A program made the position numbers and the translations under genes. A stretch of DNA of 64,000 nt, taken from contig NZ_RBCI01000002.1 in the NCBI RefSeq assembly GCF_003628535.1, positions 124,001-188,000 on the forward strand, written 5' to 3'. The stretch comes from Flavisolibacter nicotianae (lineage in GTDB: Bacteria; Bacteroidota; Bacteroidia; Chitinophagales; Chitinophagaceae). Positions 15,712-54,417 of this stretch are shown here, piece after piece. Positions within the stretch are counted from its first letter, which is position 1. Each line of letters begins with the position of its first letter. The notes under the pieces were generated by a model. It made no database searches, was not told the origin of the DNA, and was given only the letters and a program-made list of their open reading frames with translations.

Positions 15712-15746
15712 CAATCGGCAATTGACAATGTGCAATTGACAAGGGG
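15712..15746 (+). repeat. Left heptamer arm of S23 element 1
   Basis: Five units in exact 7-bp register with consensus CAATNNN: CAATCGG, CAATTGA, CAATGTG, CAATTGA, CAAGGGG. It begins at the base after the start codon of the nuclease-like gene. Confidence 0.85.
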
Positions 15747-15774
15747 GATTGAACAAAAGGCATAACTTGTTGAG

Positions 15775-16140
15775 CTAATACTTTTCAGGGTTGCTGATCA
15801 TGTGTCCCAGAAGTTTGCCTACTTCTATTTGTTGGTTTAGCAGGTCCTGCTGTTTTTCTTTTGTGATATAGCGACACGATGCAGCAAAATCCAGCCATAC
15901 ACTGGTTTCGGAATTTTCCATGTCTGCGTCTGAAATTTTTGAAAGAAAATGGGCCGGATATTGCTTCTTCCTATAAGCTTCTGCAAGGCAGGCGCAAACA
16001 CTTCGCGACGATCGTCTGACTTGATCGGTAAGGGAAAACTTTTCTTCCGCAGGAAACTTTCGGGTGATTTCAAAAATCTCCATTGCCAAACTAAATGCCT
16101 TCTGGTAGACTTTTGTTTGTTTGAAATGTTGTACACTCAT
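15775..16140 (-). CDS. Four-helix-bundle protein, S23/TIGR02436 family (intact)
   Basis: 121 residues, the usual length for this small all-helical family, which includes the protein encoded by 23S rRNA intervening sequences and is structurally related to Avd of diversity-generating retroelements. Subfamily signature: FSLTDQVRRSSRSV, then LAEAYRKKQYPAHFLSKISD and SETSVWLDFA, ending LLGHMISNPEKY. The usual CANLAEA is CACLAEA here (Asn to Cys). The surface is rich in Lys/Arg, compatible with nucleic-acid binding. The gene sits alone between two inverted heptamer arrays. Molecular function is not known for the free-standing members. Confidence 0.88.
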   Translation of the reverse strand: MSVQHFKQTKVYQKAFSLAMEIFEITRKFPAEEKFSLTDQVRRSSRSVCACLAEAYRKKQYPAHFLSKISDADMENSETSVWLDFAASCRYITKEKQQDLLNQQIEVGKLLGHMISNPEKY

Positions 16141-16189
16141 GGCAGTTGGTTTATGGGAATCTCAATTTACCTTCTTTTCCGCTTATTAT

Positions 16190-16217
16190 CAACTGCCAAC
16201 TGCCAATTGCCTATTGG
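16190..16217 (-). repeat. Right heptamer arm of S23 element 1
   Basis: Four units in register: CAACTGC, CAACTGC, CAATTGC, CTATTGG. The reverse complement gives GGCAATTG and GGCAGTTG words matching the left arm. It runs into the last codons of the DUF502 gene, whose C-terminus (EEQRNQ) it helps encode. Confidence 0.85.
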
Positions 16218-20191: not shown

Positions 20192-20278
20192 ACAGCAGAC
20201 AGTAAGCAGTCGGCGATAGGCAGTAAAAGGCAATCTCCTTCATGACTGCATACTGCGTACTGCCGACTGCGGACTCAG
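20192..20278. repeat. Gene-less inverted heptamer pair inside the efflux operon
   Basis: The left arm (20192-20233) has units ACAGTAA, GCAGTCG, GCGATAG, GCAGTAA. The right arm (20244-20278) has GACTGCA, TACTGCG, TACTGCC, GACTGCG, GACTCAG. The arms are reverse-complementary in dialect (GCAGTNN) with a 10-bp spacer, so the mRNA could fold into a long imperfect hairpin between adaptor and pump genes. Confidence 0.82.
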
Positions 20279-25810: not shown

Positions 25811-25865
25811 GCGATTTCGTTGATGGCAGAAGCGCTGCGAATTTTGGGCCAGCCCGGAGAGAATT

Positions 25866-25896
25866 AGATATTGTGATATTGGATATTGGGATATTT
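25866..25896 (+). repeat. Solo heptamer/octamer array (GGATATT dialect)
   Basis: GATATT occurs four times with spacings 8, 7 and 8 between the GH2 start and the next gene. It is the same dialect as the arrays at 43933 and 46106. No inverted partner is seen nearby. Confidence 0.65.
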
Positions 25897-35022: not shown

Positions 35023-35034
35023 GGTGTTGTCAGT

Positions 35035-35062
35035 GGGGAATGGTCAATGGTGAATAGTGAAT
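35035..35062 (+). repeat. Left heptamer arm of S23 element 4
   Basis: Four units in exact register: GGGGAAT, GGTCAAT, GGTGAAT, AGTGAAT. It shares a 20-bp identical stretch with the solo array at 12430. Confidence 0.85.
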
Positions 35063-35099
35063 TCGATCAGTCCTGAAAGGATTTCGAAGGTTTGAATCA

Positions 35100-35430
35100 T
35101 GGTCTCTCCCAGGGTTTTAGATTTAGGCTTTCCAGCTAAAGCAATACTTTGGCAATGTTCAAGGCCGCATCGATTTCAATCACAGCTCCTCCCGCCACCT
35201 CGTCACAACATTTCCGTTCCTGTTCAGATTTTCTGGAAGCGTCTACAGCAATGTTTCCCTGTACAGCGAAGGCAGTTCTTCAGATTTTTGAACTCATTCC
35301 GGATTTCTCTTCTACAGGAAGTAGCCTGCTTCGTCGATCGCATTCAAAAACAAATTTTTTTGAGAGCTGTAAACATCCGCCTCCGGTGATTAAGCGTTCA
35401 AAACATTGTGGTTGGTATTCGTGAATAGGA
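35100..35430 (-). pseudogene. Four-helix-bundle (S23/TIGR02436) gene relic
   Basis: Reading the minus strand across stops and frameshifts gives LPVEEKSGMSSKI, a stop, then GNIAVDASRKSEQERK, CDEVAGGAVIEIDAAL and NIAKVLL. This follows the family pattern EEKYGLTSQIRRA..NIAEG.SRKS..E...F...A.GS..EIDTAL. An upstream frame supplies VYSSQKNLFLNAIDEAGYFL, which fits helix 1. It has at least one frameshift and two in-frame stops. The C-terminal part is hard to place. It is a fourth, separate S23 subfamily. Confidence 0.7.
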
Positions 35431-35451
35431 GAAGTCGAAACAACAGGCTAG

Positions 35452-35472
35452 ATTGCCCATTCACCACCTTAC
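35452..35472 (-). repeat. Right heptamer arm of S23 element 4
   Basis: ATTGCCC, ATTCACC, then a looser ACCTTAC; the reverse complement reads GGTGAAT and GGGCAAT, matching the left arm. It covers the stop codon of the AIM24 gene. Confidence 0.7.
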
Positions 35473-45007: not shown

Positions 45008-46081
45008 TTATTCCGCGTGGACGAGGCGATGCTTTTTAAAGGCGTGCAGCAGGGCATCCACCTGGGCCAGTTTCTCTTGTTCTTCGCCAAAAATCTGTTC
45101 CACTTCGGCTTTCAGTTCGTCGTCGTTTTCCTGCGCCAGGTAAACTTCAATTTTGTTGACCGCCTGCGTGGTTGCCCTTTCCAGCAAAGCTTCCGTGTCG
45201 GTCATCCCGGACAGTTCGGACGATGTGTGGGCTTGTTCTTCGCGCTGTGCGGCCGTGTGGAGAATCTGCACCCGCAGATCCTCGAGGCTGCGGATGACGC
45301 TTTCGAGCGGCGGGGCACCCGGCATTTCCAGTCCTTCCAGCAGGTAATCCTTTCGCCGTAATTCAAAGTTTCGTCCGAGGTAGAGCCGCTTCACTTCGTC
45401 ATCTGCCGCCAGTTCTTCGGCCGTCCCATGCTTGAAGATCTTTCCTTCGATGAGCAGGTAGGCACGGTCGCAAATGGAAAGGGTTTCGGTTACGTTGTGA
45501 TCGGTGATGAGGATCCCGATGTTTTTGTATTTGAGTTTGGCCACAATGGCCTGGATGTCTTCCACCGCGATCGGGTCGATACCGGCAAACGGTTCGTCGA
45601 GCAGGATGAACTTTGGGTCTACGGCCAGTGCCCTGGCTATCTCGGTACGTCGTCTTTCACCGCCGCTCAGCACATCGCCCGGGCTTTTCCGCACATGGTG
45701 CAGCCGGAATTCATCGAGCAGGCTTTCGAGCTTTGCCTTTTGTTCCTTGCGGGAAAGTTTGGTCATCTCGAGCACGGCGCTGATATTGTCTTCCACGCTC
45801 AGTTTGCGAAACACGGACGCTTCCTGCGGCAGGTAGCCGATGCCCAGTTGTGCACGGCGGTACATGGCCAGCTTGGTGATGTCTTCGCCGTCGAGGTACA
45901 CGGCGCCTTCGTCGGGTTTGATCAGTCCAACGACCATGTAAAACGTGGTTGTTTTTCCGGCACCGTTGGGCCCCAGCAGTCCCACGATCTCTCCCTGCTT
46001 TACTTCAACGGAAGCATGGTTGACCACTGTGCGTTTGCCGTAGCGTTTTACCAAATCCTGCGTATGTATCCGGATGCTCAT
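45008..46081 (-). CDS. lptB: LPS export ABC transporter ATPase LptB with extra C-terminal domain
   Basis: ATPase that powers lipopolysaccharide export with LptF/G. The first ~240 residues are a canonical LptB: Walker [16 protein letters not shown]-loop [10 protein letters not shown], signature [15 protein letters not shown], Walker [14 protein letters not shown]-loop ITDHNV. LptB normally ends near residue 241 (YLGRNFEL is the usual end). Here about 115 further residues follow: a loop and two acidic helices ([36 protein letters not shown]). The extension is not familiar to me. Confidence 0.93.
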
Positions 46082-46105: not shown

Positions 46106-46140
46106 TATTGGATAGCCGATATTGGGTATTGGGGAATCGT
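46106..46140 (+). repeat. Left heptamer arm of S23 element 2
   Basis: Five units in exact register: TATTGGA, TAGCCGA, TATTGGG, TATTGGG, GAATCGT. It abuts the stop of the four-helix gene. Confidence 0.86.
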
Positions 46141-46524
46141 TTATTGTGAAGTCGTTTTGAGTTTTTTGATATAGCCGTTTAACTTGTGATGCAGGGTACG
46201 AAGTTTTTCTAACAGCAAATCGTATTCATCTTGCTGGATAAGAGATCGGTTTCGTGCCTTTGTCGCCCAATTCTTTGTTTCCAAAAGCGATCCCCGGCTG
46301 TAATAGCAGAATGATTTTCTATCCTTATAAAAATAGCGGCCATAACCCTCCGCGATGTTAGCAGAAATAGAGTCTGACGCTTCTACAAATTGCTTTCCTA
46401 TAGTTGCCTTTGAAAAATATTCCCACTTGATCACAATACTCCAAACATCTTCTCCAATTGCCAGTGCTAACTGATAGATGTCTAAATCTTCAAGCTTGAG
46501 GGTGTCCATTGGCTTAATTTGCAT
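46141..46524 (-). CDS. Four-helix-bundle protein, S23/TIGR02436 family (intact)
   Basis: 127 residues; the ATG at 46509 ([16 protein letters not shown]) may be the true start. Family signature: [18 protein letters not shown] followed by [20 protein letters not shown], ending in a basic helix [14 protein letters not shown]. It is a different subfamily from the one at 15775. The gene is AT-richer than its neighbours and lies exactly between two inverted heptamer arrays, with the stop codon next to the left arm. Confidence 0.88.
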
Positions 46525-46560
46525 AGCAAACTATAAAAAAAAATCTTCACGTAATAAAAA

Positions 46561-46609
46561 TATCCACTATCTAATCCCTCAATATCTAATATCCTAATAT
46601 CCCAATCTC
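46561..46609 (-). repeat. Right heptamer arm of S23 element 2
   Basis: Seven consecutive 7-bp words (TATCCAC, TATCTAA, TCCCTCA, ATATCTA, ATATCCT, AATATCC, CAATCTC) with small phase slips. They are the reverse complement of the left arm dialect. Confidence 0.85.
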
Positions 46610-46613
46610 ACCC

Positions 46614-46621
46614 TATGTTTG
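46614..46621 (+). promoter_or_regulatory. -7 promoter box TATGTTTG of metF
   Basis: Perfect TAnnTTTG, 10 bp before the metF ATG. The expected -33 position (around 46590-46597) is occupied by the heptamer arm and has no TTTG. Confidence 0.6.
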
Positions 46622-46631
46622 CACCCTTATT

Positions 46632-47582
46632 ATGACAGTCATCGAGCAAATAAAAGAGGCGAAAGACACCCTGGTTTCCTTTGAGATCCTTCCCCCGCTG
46701 AAAGGCAAAAGCATCAATGCACTTTGGGAACACCTGGATCCGCTGATGGAATTTAAACCGGCGTTTATCAACGTGACCTACCATCGCAGCGAAAGCATGT
46801 TTAAGAAAAAACCGGACGGCACCTTCGAAAAAGTGGAAGTGCGCAAACGTCCCGGCACGGTGGGTATTTGTGCGGCGCTGATGAACCGCTACAAGGTGGA
46901 TGCGGTGGCGCACCTGATTTGTGGCGGCTTTAACAAGCAGGAAACGGAAGATGCCCTGATTGACCTGCACTTCCTGGGAGTGAACAATGTGCTGGTGCTG
47001 CGTGGCGATGCGCCCAAAAACGAAAGCTCCTTCGAGCCGGACCCGGGCGGACACCGGTACGCCATCGAACTGCTGCAGCAGGTAACCAACATGAACAACG
47101 CGATATACCTGGAAGAGGACCTGAAAAATGCCGTGCGCACCAATTTTTGCATCGGTGTGGCCGGGTATCCCGAGAAACATTTCGAGGCGCCCAACATGCA
47201 AACCGACCTGGCTTTTTTGAAAGCAAAAGTGGATGCGGGTGCCGAGTACGTGGTGACACAAATGTTCTTCGACAACCAGAAATATTTTTCCTTTGTGCAG
47301 TCGTGCAAAGACGCCGGCATTCATGTTCCCATCATACCCGGACTAAAGCCGATCACGTCGAAAAAGCAACTCACCATCATTCCCCGCACCTTTCATGTAG
47401 ACATTCCCGAAGAACTGTCTTCCGAGATCACGAAATGCAAGACCGATGCAGACGTGGAAATCGTGGGGCAGGAGTGGTTGTTAAAACAATCGAAAGAATT
47501 AAAAGCCGCCGGCGTGCCGGTGTTGCACTACTATACCCTGGGCAAGCCGCAGGTGATTGCCAATGTGGTGAAGAATCTTTGA
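46632..47582 (+). CDS. metF: Methylenetetrahydrofolate reductase
   Basis: FAD-dependent reduction of 5,10-methylene- to 5-methyl-tetrahydrofolate for methionine synthesis. 316 residues, full length. Motifs: FEILPPLKGKSI (start, catalytic Glu), FINVTYHR, AHLICGGFNKQE, VLRGDAP, GVAGYPEKHFEAPN, YVVTQMFFDNQ, PGLKPITSKKQL. Cytoplasmic. A strong terminator follows. Confidence 0.96.
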   Translation: MTVIEQIKEAKDTLVSFEILPPLKGKSINALWEHLDPLMEFKPAFINVTYHRSESMFKKKPDGTFEKVEVRKRPGTVGICAALMNRYKVDAVAHLICGGFNKQETEDALIDLHFLGVNNVLVLRGDAPKNESSFEPDPGGHRYAIELLQQVTNMNNAIYLEEDLKNAVRTNFCIGVAGYPEKHFEAPNMQTDLAFLKAKVDAGAEYVVTQMFFDNQKYFSFVQSCKDAGIHVPIIPGLKPITSKKQLTIIPRTFHVDIPEELSSEITKCKTDADVEIVGQEWLLKQSKELKAAGVPVLHYYTLGKPQVIANVVKNL

Positions 47583-51117: not shown

Positions 51118-51185
51118 AAGAAATGAATAAGTAGACGTAAAAATAGATTTTAATGGGAGATGAGTGGTTAAAAAGATGCAAAACA

Positions 51186-51227
51186 GTTTGGAGTTTGGAG
51201 TCTGGGGTTTAGGGTTATTGGGTGCTA
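51186..51227 (+). repeat. Left heptamer arm of S23 element 3
   Basis: Six consecutive units: GTTTGGA, GTTTGGA, GTCTGGG, GTTTAGG, GTTATTG, GGTGCTA. Confidence 0.87.
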
Positions 51228-51621
51228 GTTTCTTTCTTTAATTTTTTGCCCCTGATGTCCGAAGCGTTTAAATAGCTGATAAAGGCACCAATTTTTTTGA
51301 CCGGTAAATCTGCATTGGAATAGAGTTCGTTGAAAAGTGCTTCTGAAAATAGTGTATGTCCAAGCCCCTGCATAATTGCGATTTCAGCTCCCCGGCTTCT
51401 CCCTTTGCAGTGGTTAATGAGTGTACAAACTCATGTTTACTTCCCCGGCCGAAGCCTTCGGCAATATTGTCCATAATAGAACCACATGTGCCTCTGACCT
51501 GGTCTTTGTAGCGAAAGTCCTTGGCAATAGGCTCCTCAAAAGTGAGCAGATTGATTTCCCGGGAAAGCCGCCGTGCTGGCTGCCAAATCTCCAGGTCTTC
51601 AAACTTATGAACAGCAGCCAT
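51215..51621 (-). pseudogene. Four-helix-bundle protein, S23/TIGR02436 family (frameshifted)
   Basis: The open frame 51621-51268 gives 117 residues: FEDLEIWQPARRLSREI, SIMDNIAEGFGRGSKHEFVH, TAKGEAGELKSQLCRGL, then an unrelated tail. A -1 shift near CRGL restores the expected family ending: FNELYSNADLPVKKIGAFI and SYLNASDIRGKKLKK, closing at a stop at 51215-51217 inside the left heptamer arm. So this copy carries one frameshift (or a sequence error) close to the start of helix 4. It is a third subfamily, different from those at 15775 and 46141. Confidence 0.8.
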
Positions 51622-51647
51622 GGTAAAGTTTGACCGAACTAAGATAA

Positions 51648-51682
51648 CAACTCCGGACCCCCATCTCCAAACCCCAAACTCT
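51648..51682 (-). repeat. Right heptamer arm of S23 element 3
   Basis: CAACTCC, GGACCCC, CATCTCC, AAACCCC, AAACTCT in register; the reverse complement (GGGGTTT, GGAGTTG) matches the left arm. Confidence 0.86.
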
Positions 51683-54237: not shown

Positions 54238-54311
54238 TCCTCCTTAGCTCAGTTGGTTAGAGCATCTGACTGTTAATCAGAGGGTCTCAGGTTCAAGTCC
54301 TGAAGGGGGAG
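54238..54311 (+). tRNA. tRNA-Asn (GTT), copy 1
   Basis: 74-nt cloverleaf: acceptor TCCTCCT/AGGGGGA, D arm with AGTTGGTTAGAGC, anticodon arm CTGAC-TGTTAAT-CAGAG (anticodon GTT), T arm with GTTCAAGTC. CCA is not encoded. Confidence 0.96.
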
Positions 54312-54343: not shown

Positions 54344-54417
54344 TCCTCCTTAGCTCAGTTGGTTAGAGCATCTGACTGTTAATCAGAGGGTCTCAGGTTC
54401 AAGTCCTGAAGGGGGAG
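54344..54417 (+). tRNA. tRNA-Asn (GTT), copy 2
   Basis: Identical in all 74 positions to copy 1, 32 bp downstream, surely one transcript. CCA is not encoded. Confidence 0.96.

Follow-up and report, generated by a model that had tools for sequence, protein, structure and literature searches.

The window analysed here is a stretch of 64,000 nucleotides from the genome of Flavisolibacter nicotianae (6.1 Mb in 70 contigs, with 17 PF05635 places in a profile search). Between lptB (45008–46081, reverse strand) and metF (46632–47582, forward strand), and between two promoter regions, it carries an S23 gene (23S_rRNA_IVP) at 46141–46524 on the reverse strand. The gene is an intact open reading frame for 127 amino acids, and its product matches PF05635 with 84.3 bits (8e-24; curated cut-off 33.8) and TIGR02436 with 86.1 bits (2e-24; cut-off 24). 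The stop codon is only a few bases away from a left arm (46106–46138), a degenerate array of short words that is inverted relative to the right arm on the 5' side of the gene (46559–46609). The right arm was detected by TRF (score 49) and is an array of YAATATCC, the reverse complement of GGATATTR, with a match to three consecutive GGATATTR units at C2:170587. The intact gene, the abutting stop codon and the inverted arms agree with the original prediction, which had also counted seven 7-bp words in the right arm; this count was not borne out, as the word is mainly an 8-mer (GGATATTR) with 7-bp slips. As predicted, a -7-like box of metF, TATGTTTG, follows just past the right arm (46614–46621, forward strand), and its form TA(T/A)GTTTG is conserved in many relatives. 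The product of the lptB-like gene, an ABC ATPase of 357 amino acids, has a long C-terminal extension past its ABC domain match (21–166).

Arms were scored by comparing the 5' flank of each S23 gene with the reverse-complemented 3' flank of the same gene, with a threshold of 14. The lptB-metF element scored 17, whereas swapped flanks among 79 elements of the genus averaged 10.5 (sd 3.0), with 10.6% of the swapped pairs scoring at least 14. The strongest support for the window arms comes from the copy at the same site in a relative (G010), in which the left arm is clean and reads GGATATTG GGATATTA GGATATTG GGATATTG. The S23 protein of this copy is 73% identical to the window protein over residues 20–125, and its N-terminal part lies outside the same open frame. 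The window arms are too irregular for a stricter array scan, which found nine other arrays in the window and none in each of three shuffles (0, 0 and 0); of these nine, two are low-complexity sequence with a period of 6.

Further elements are present in the window. A second S23 element (L002, word approximately CAATTGG/GGCAATT) is located at 15712–16216, a third (L010, word GTTTGGR) at 51185–51682, in a slot with other elements in G005, G008, G010 and G015, and a decayed one with two stops (L017, word approximately GGTGAAT) at 35029–35470, all on the reverse strand. An inverted pair without S23 (word approximately GGCAGTA) lies at 20201–20275, and a solo array of the word family of the lptB-metF element (GGATATT), also without S23, at 25863–25895. 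Two tandem tRNA genes with equal scores (69.5 bits) are found at 54238–54311 and 54344–54417.

The AF2 model of the window S23 protein (pLDDT 92) has the four-helix fold of 2gsc and 2rld (TM up to 0.85), both of which contain five chains. In the fold ranking these were followed by Avd of diversity-generating retroelements (4dwl, TM 0.72–0.77), which shares the fold and is only 8–11% identical to S23; the likeness to diversity-generating retroelements consists in the Avd fold alone, and no reverse transcriptase was seen adjoining the elements read. No nuclease or transposase domain was recognisable in S23. A relative of S23 from Xanthomonas is described as a toroidal homopentamer whose function is not known (PMC4990558). 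S23 is under purifying selection in the pairs tested: pN/pS was 0.04–0.41 in all 15 hand-picked pairs, and dN/dS was 0.04–0.19 in the eight of them with computable dS, two of which have a dS above 2.

The metF promoter

The original prediction had pointed out that a -33 element is missing upstream of the metF box, and indeed neither TTTG nor TTG occurs in the 30 bases preceding TATGTTTG. It had further proposed that the element inserted into, or replaced part of, the metF promoter. The order lptB-metF is syntenic in all 17 genomes of the genus that have metF, and the site is without an inverted pair in 12 of them, one of which (G003) has a one-sided 7-bp array. Of this proposal, insertion is supported and an ancestral promoter is not, and the notion that the element caused the loss of the -33 box is not supported either: the missing TTTG is not peculiar to the carriers, because it is absent in 9 of the 12 genomes without an inverted pair as well as in all five with one. 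In two of the latter, G008 and G015, TTTG is absent although the arms stop well short of the -7 box on its upstream side, and three genomes without a pair (G009, G011 and G017) keep TTTG-N19-TA(T/A)GTTTG. The suggestion that the arm supplies an alternative upstream element for metF is ruled out by the spacing comparison in the window genome (G000) and G010, where no TTTG or TTG is found at the right distance. Taken as a whole, the original observations were thus mostly right and their reading was supported in part.

An arm ending directly before an outward -7 box is a recurrent pattern among the elements. An outward TANNTTTG was found within 40 bp of 12 of 128 arm edges, compared to 4 of 896 more distant windows, most of which lie in coding sequence and so provide no matched control for the enrichment, and an inward one at none of the 128 edges.

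Inverted arms around S23 genes in other genomes

PF05635 matches were obtained in 17 of 18 genomes of the genus and in 232 of 296 genomes of a phylum sample. Matching inverted arms flank 67 of 79 elements in the genus, 22 of 30 in the phylum and 57 of 74 in a scan of many phyla, leaving 12, 8 and 17 elements below the threshold, respectively; 5 of 84 genus loci and 6 of 80 scan loci had been left out before counting as fragments or for short flanks. Among swapped flank pairs, 10.6, 14.6 and 10.7% passed in the three sets, and the mean scores of own and swapped flanks were 20.1 and 10.5, 17.0 and 11.1, and 20.7 and 10.1. In the genus set, shuffled flanks (9.8) and flanks in direct orientation (9.9) also stayed far below the own inverted flanks. 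In the scan of named genomes, 40 of 53 records not titled as members of the Bacteroidota passed, and the taxa included Clostridia, Planctomycetes, Acidobacteria, Chloroflexi, Thiohalocapsa, Candidate Phyla and a Methanophagales archaeon. Matching arms were further found for 7 of 11 elements of an additional set, for 6 of 17 in genomes of the family Chromatiaceae, and for 6 of 11 on cyanobacterial plasmids, where two of the passing elements are near-copies from one strain and the rate for swapped flanks was high (26 of 110). It is highly probable that S23 and its arms form one unit.

Several individual loci differ from the common picture or have unusual neighbours. On a plasmid of Pseudanabaena galeata (L354), very long arrays on both sides of S23 are, unlike in most elements, not inverted copies of one word (inverted-flank score 7). 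In this locus and on a plasmid of Anabaena sp. 90 (L348), the S23 gene lies between cas6 and cas4 in a CRISPR locus, which is annotated with a type I-D cas1d in Anabaena. One Clostridia record (G331) has 16 S23 places in a genome of 3.8 Mb, with long heptamer arms at L209. L106, L114 and L132 align to L197 over approximately 2 kb at about 82–83%, their S23 loci being collinear with Flavobacterium.

Word and protein

Within arms, base matches at lags of 7, 14 and 21 reached 0.40–0.50 and at lag 8 0.34–0.35, compared to mostly 0.23–0.31 elsewhere. A strict 7-bp period is ruled out by the spread among the 79 genus elements, in which the word period was 7 (57 elements), 8 (15), 9 (3), 6 (2) or 10 (2). 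The arms have median lengths of 4.9 and 4.6 units in the genus, so that five units per arm is a tendency and not a rule, and arrays of 11–15 units also occur.

Each S23 subfamily has its own word of 7–9 bp (among them GTTGAYAR, GTTCACNN, GGTGAAT, GAGCTGT, TTAGCTG, GTTTGGR and AAACGTGAGACGTG), and the word tracks the protein. Arm similarity correlated with S23 identity (Mantel r = 0.50; best of 2000 permutations 0.11; n = 70), and the correlation fell to 0.00 once one set of arms was reverse-complemented, indicating that the word has a set orientation relative to the gene. This tracking of S23 itself argues against S23 being a cargo or regulator on elements that are moved by another enzyme, such as a host transposase, reverse transcriptase or recombinase, as does the finding that the elements read, with a length of about 0.5 kb, showed no second conserved gene. 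In favour of such a passive role, S23 is without a known catalytic domain, and Avd, to which it is related in fold, has a reverse transcriptase as its partner according to PDB titles; on balance we consider it rather unlikely.

The inverted arms are able to pair, and S23 is known as the protein of the intervening sequences (IVS) of rRNA genes, whose borders are complementary to each other and are cleaved by RNase III (PMC4990558). The window element may therefore be an RNA element of the same kind, with arms that pair in the transcript and are trimmed by RNase III, S23 as a passenger or RNA-acting protein, and incidental dispersal. However, the order of unit variants is barely common to the two arms: the mean over 64 elements was 17.5, compared to 17.7 after resampling of units and 16.2 after permuting their order, and 5 of the 64 elements reached p ≤ 0.05 for a shared order. 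Arms with a common word but an almost unrelated sequence of its variants favour a protein that reads words over a perfect stem. The mild excess over order-permuted arms in 44 of 64 elements leaves some room for pairing. The RNA of the window element folds no better than shuffles (z = -1.0), which together with the unshared unit order rules out exact base-paired stems as the main conserved feature. The arms are also found mainly outside rRNA; the window element itself lies between lptB and metF, and Rfam finds only the two tRNAs in the window. Compared to the IVS, with which they share the protein family and inverted complementary ends (PMC4990558), elements of the window type lie between protein genes, are present in many copies per genome and have word arrays in place of a unique stem. 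An RNA element is accordingly an improbable explanation.

Occupation of intergenic slots

From one related species to another, a given intergenic slot may be occupied by different elements or be empty. Among 161 pairs of S23 proteins with at least 50% identity, 143 are without homology of the flanks, and 61 of these share the word. At the lptB-metF site, G000 and G010 have inverted pairs of GGATATTR with S23, and G008 (GTTAATAR) as well as G005 and G015 (GTTGA-type) have pairs without S23. The sister genomes G008 and G010 have different elements in three further slots with flanks that are 87–90% identical: L041 and L069; L067 and L068, with 23% S23 identity; and L065 and L020, with 56% identity and opposite orientation. 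Two of the nine array sites of the window were covered by the comparison across relatives. In the slot at 51185, G015 has an element of the GTTTGGAG family with S23 reading the opposite way and G005 a pair without S23. In a slot that follows the end of a gene, G000 has a compact element, G008 a run of 12 GTTTGTA, and G017 an inverted GTTCACAA pair, and no element is visible in G006, G009, G010 and G015. A search for an empty site with both flanks of the compact element returned relatives matched by the left flank only, and no target-site duplication was seen by eye at the compared slots. No recent jump was found; among pairs with the same word at unrelated sites, identity does not exceed 84%.

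Dispersed copies without S23

In the window genome, three consecutive GGATATTR units were matched 45 times, and these matches were grouped by eye into about 28 sites; the reversed pattern gave none. None of the 20 sites that were read contains S23. By a loose script rule 14 of them are inverted pairs; 10 of these have three or more units in each arm, and their polarity is always inward and never outward. Six compact elements have a common loop, which was not seen in the S23-bearing copy, and the loop pattern was matched 18 times in this genome compared to 19 times in 17 relatives together (reversed control 0 in the window genome). Triples of GTTGAYAR were found in 8 of 18 genomes, among which are all five with S23 of the GTTGAYAR family among the elements read. 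These findings make it very probable that derivatives with the same word have spread.

Two further features of these copies were noted. On one side, beyond the arms, a motif resembling GGTTTCAGT / ACTGAAACC accompanies the compact elements L384, L390, L402, L403 and L411, and with 0–1 mismatches it is present at 5 of the 18 compact elements and additionally at L401. L375, L376, L380 and L382 are inverted pairs without S23 that enclose apparent intrinsic terminators or other stems, so that the longer pairs may contain host DNA between their arms.

Arrays also occur where the matching S23 was not seen. G002, which belongs to the same genus and has no PF05635 match, has 16 matches to the GGATATTR triple and 75 to the GTTTGGR triple (control 39), contradicting a strict requirement of S23 for array persistence. 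The GGATATTR triple is matched 90 times in G008 and 35 times in G005, with no S23 of the family of the lptB-metF element among the part read in these genomes. The arrays of the S23-free G002 would suit regulatory or structural arrays of the host that arise by slippage and become symmetrical via template switching, with S23 genes there by happenstance. Replication is able to make tandem words and quasi-palindromes uniform, and the elements often abut outward -7 boxes, which is in line with such an origin. It is difficult to reconcile, however, with one word at about 28 sites with a common loop and a fixed inward polarity, with the correlation between word and protein, or with the distribution of arrays. 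Outside long ORFs, the S23-rich genomes of the phylum sample had 14 arrays in 350 kb, compared to 3 in 380 kb for those without S23 (binomial p = 0.006), and two of these three belong to G002. This count excluded all arrays inside ORFs of at least 120 amino acids, among them 46 of the 55 arrays of the S23-free genomes, which all come from a single repetitive coding region (L314); the S23-rich set was counted without two short loci. We thus give little credence to host arrays as the origin and prefer spreading of derivatives of an S23 element.

Relation to known repeats and elements

REPIN/RAYT systems show a comparable arrangement, with a short repeat on both sides of one gene and further copies of this repeat dispersed over the genome as gene-less inverted pairs; in these systems RAYTs are Y1/HUH transposases acting with REP hairpins. 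The window word likewise flanks a gene and is dispersed as inverted pairs, whereas the protein here has the four-helix bundle of a pentamer and the repeats are tandem arrays of 7–9 bp words. The window S23 matches PF05635 only and no Y1/HUH transposase, and the lack of a transposase domain and of target-site duplications visible by eye also sets the element apart from insertion sequences and MITEs.

Heptamer arrays that we take to be of the STRR type, the heptanucleotide repeats of cyanobacteria, flank S23 on cyanobacterial plasmids; no link between STRR repeats and S23 was found in earlier work. TAACTGA repeats have been reported from Beggiatoaceae, Thiocystis, cyanobacteria and some Bacteroidetes, with a transfer mechanism that was not evident (MacGregor et al., 2015, PMC4679880). 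They are described there as direct repeats, and the main text of that paper is without mention of S23. The same word forms the S23 arms of three Chromatiaceae genomes (G343, G367 and G401). Among 77 genomes of this family, to which Thiohalocapsa belongs, TAACTGA triples are present in six, one of which has 109 matches. Five of the six have S23; in G377 and G390 S23 has other arms, and G335 is without S23. G343 has a second S23 (L285) without TAACTGA arms, and none of its 13 array regions that were read has S23, four of them being inverted pairs. Intergenic tandem heptamers, the common feature of TAACTGA and STRR repeats, are thus found as S23 arms in Chromatiaceae and on cyanobacterial plasmids, and the window word is a different 8-mer. 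We found no publication linking S23 to word arrays in the open-licence literature, in a search that did not extend to preprints or most subscription journals and returned partly off-topic papers.

Proposed mechanism and implications

We infer that copies of the element move, that S23 binds the arrays and drives or assists the movement, and that the pentamer reads approximately one word per subunit. The lptB-metF element is probably a dispersing element whose S23 recognises its own word array and helps copies to spread. The arrays would be the recognition sites of the S23 protein and mark the ends of the element, and its dependent derivatives would comprise inverted pairs without S23, solo arrays and compact hairpins, all built from the same word. 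An S23 ring sitting on tandem words may mark the ends for copying or recombination, in a manner resembling RAYT/REPIN systems but working with an unrelated protein. Spread into intergenic slots after stop codons and upstream of -7 boxes would be slow, and elements would be swapped or lost there. That S23 drives or assists the spread seems reasonably likely, whereas the assignment of one word to each subunit of the ring is tentative; arm lengths (medians of 4.9 and 4.6 units) fit the reading of five copies by a pentamer weakly, as 11–15 units also occur. It is conceivable, though somewhat doubtful, that S23 proteins in general are widespread self-marking mobility proteins, whose ring-shaped pentamers read about five copies of a word that co-evolves with the protein, and that they are the source of TAACTGA, STRR and many other heptamer families across bacteria and archaea.

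If the proposed mechanism is true, binding of every S23 to its own word, but not to that of its neighbour, is expected, and arrays of the same word should expand only where the corresponding S23 is, or recently was, present. Intergenic regions, and promoter comparisons such as that of metF, can be reshaped by such elements. The S23 elements would then transpose or be copied by a system in which no transposase can be recognised, which would give a function class to PF05635, among the most widespread of the orphan families, and a source to the heptamer repeats that have been noted in several phyla without an origin.
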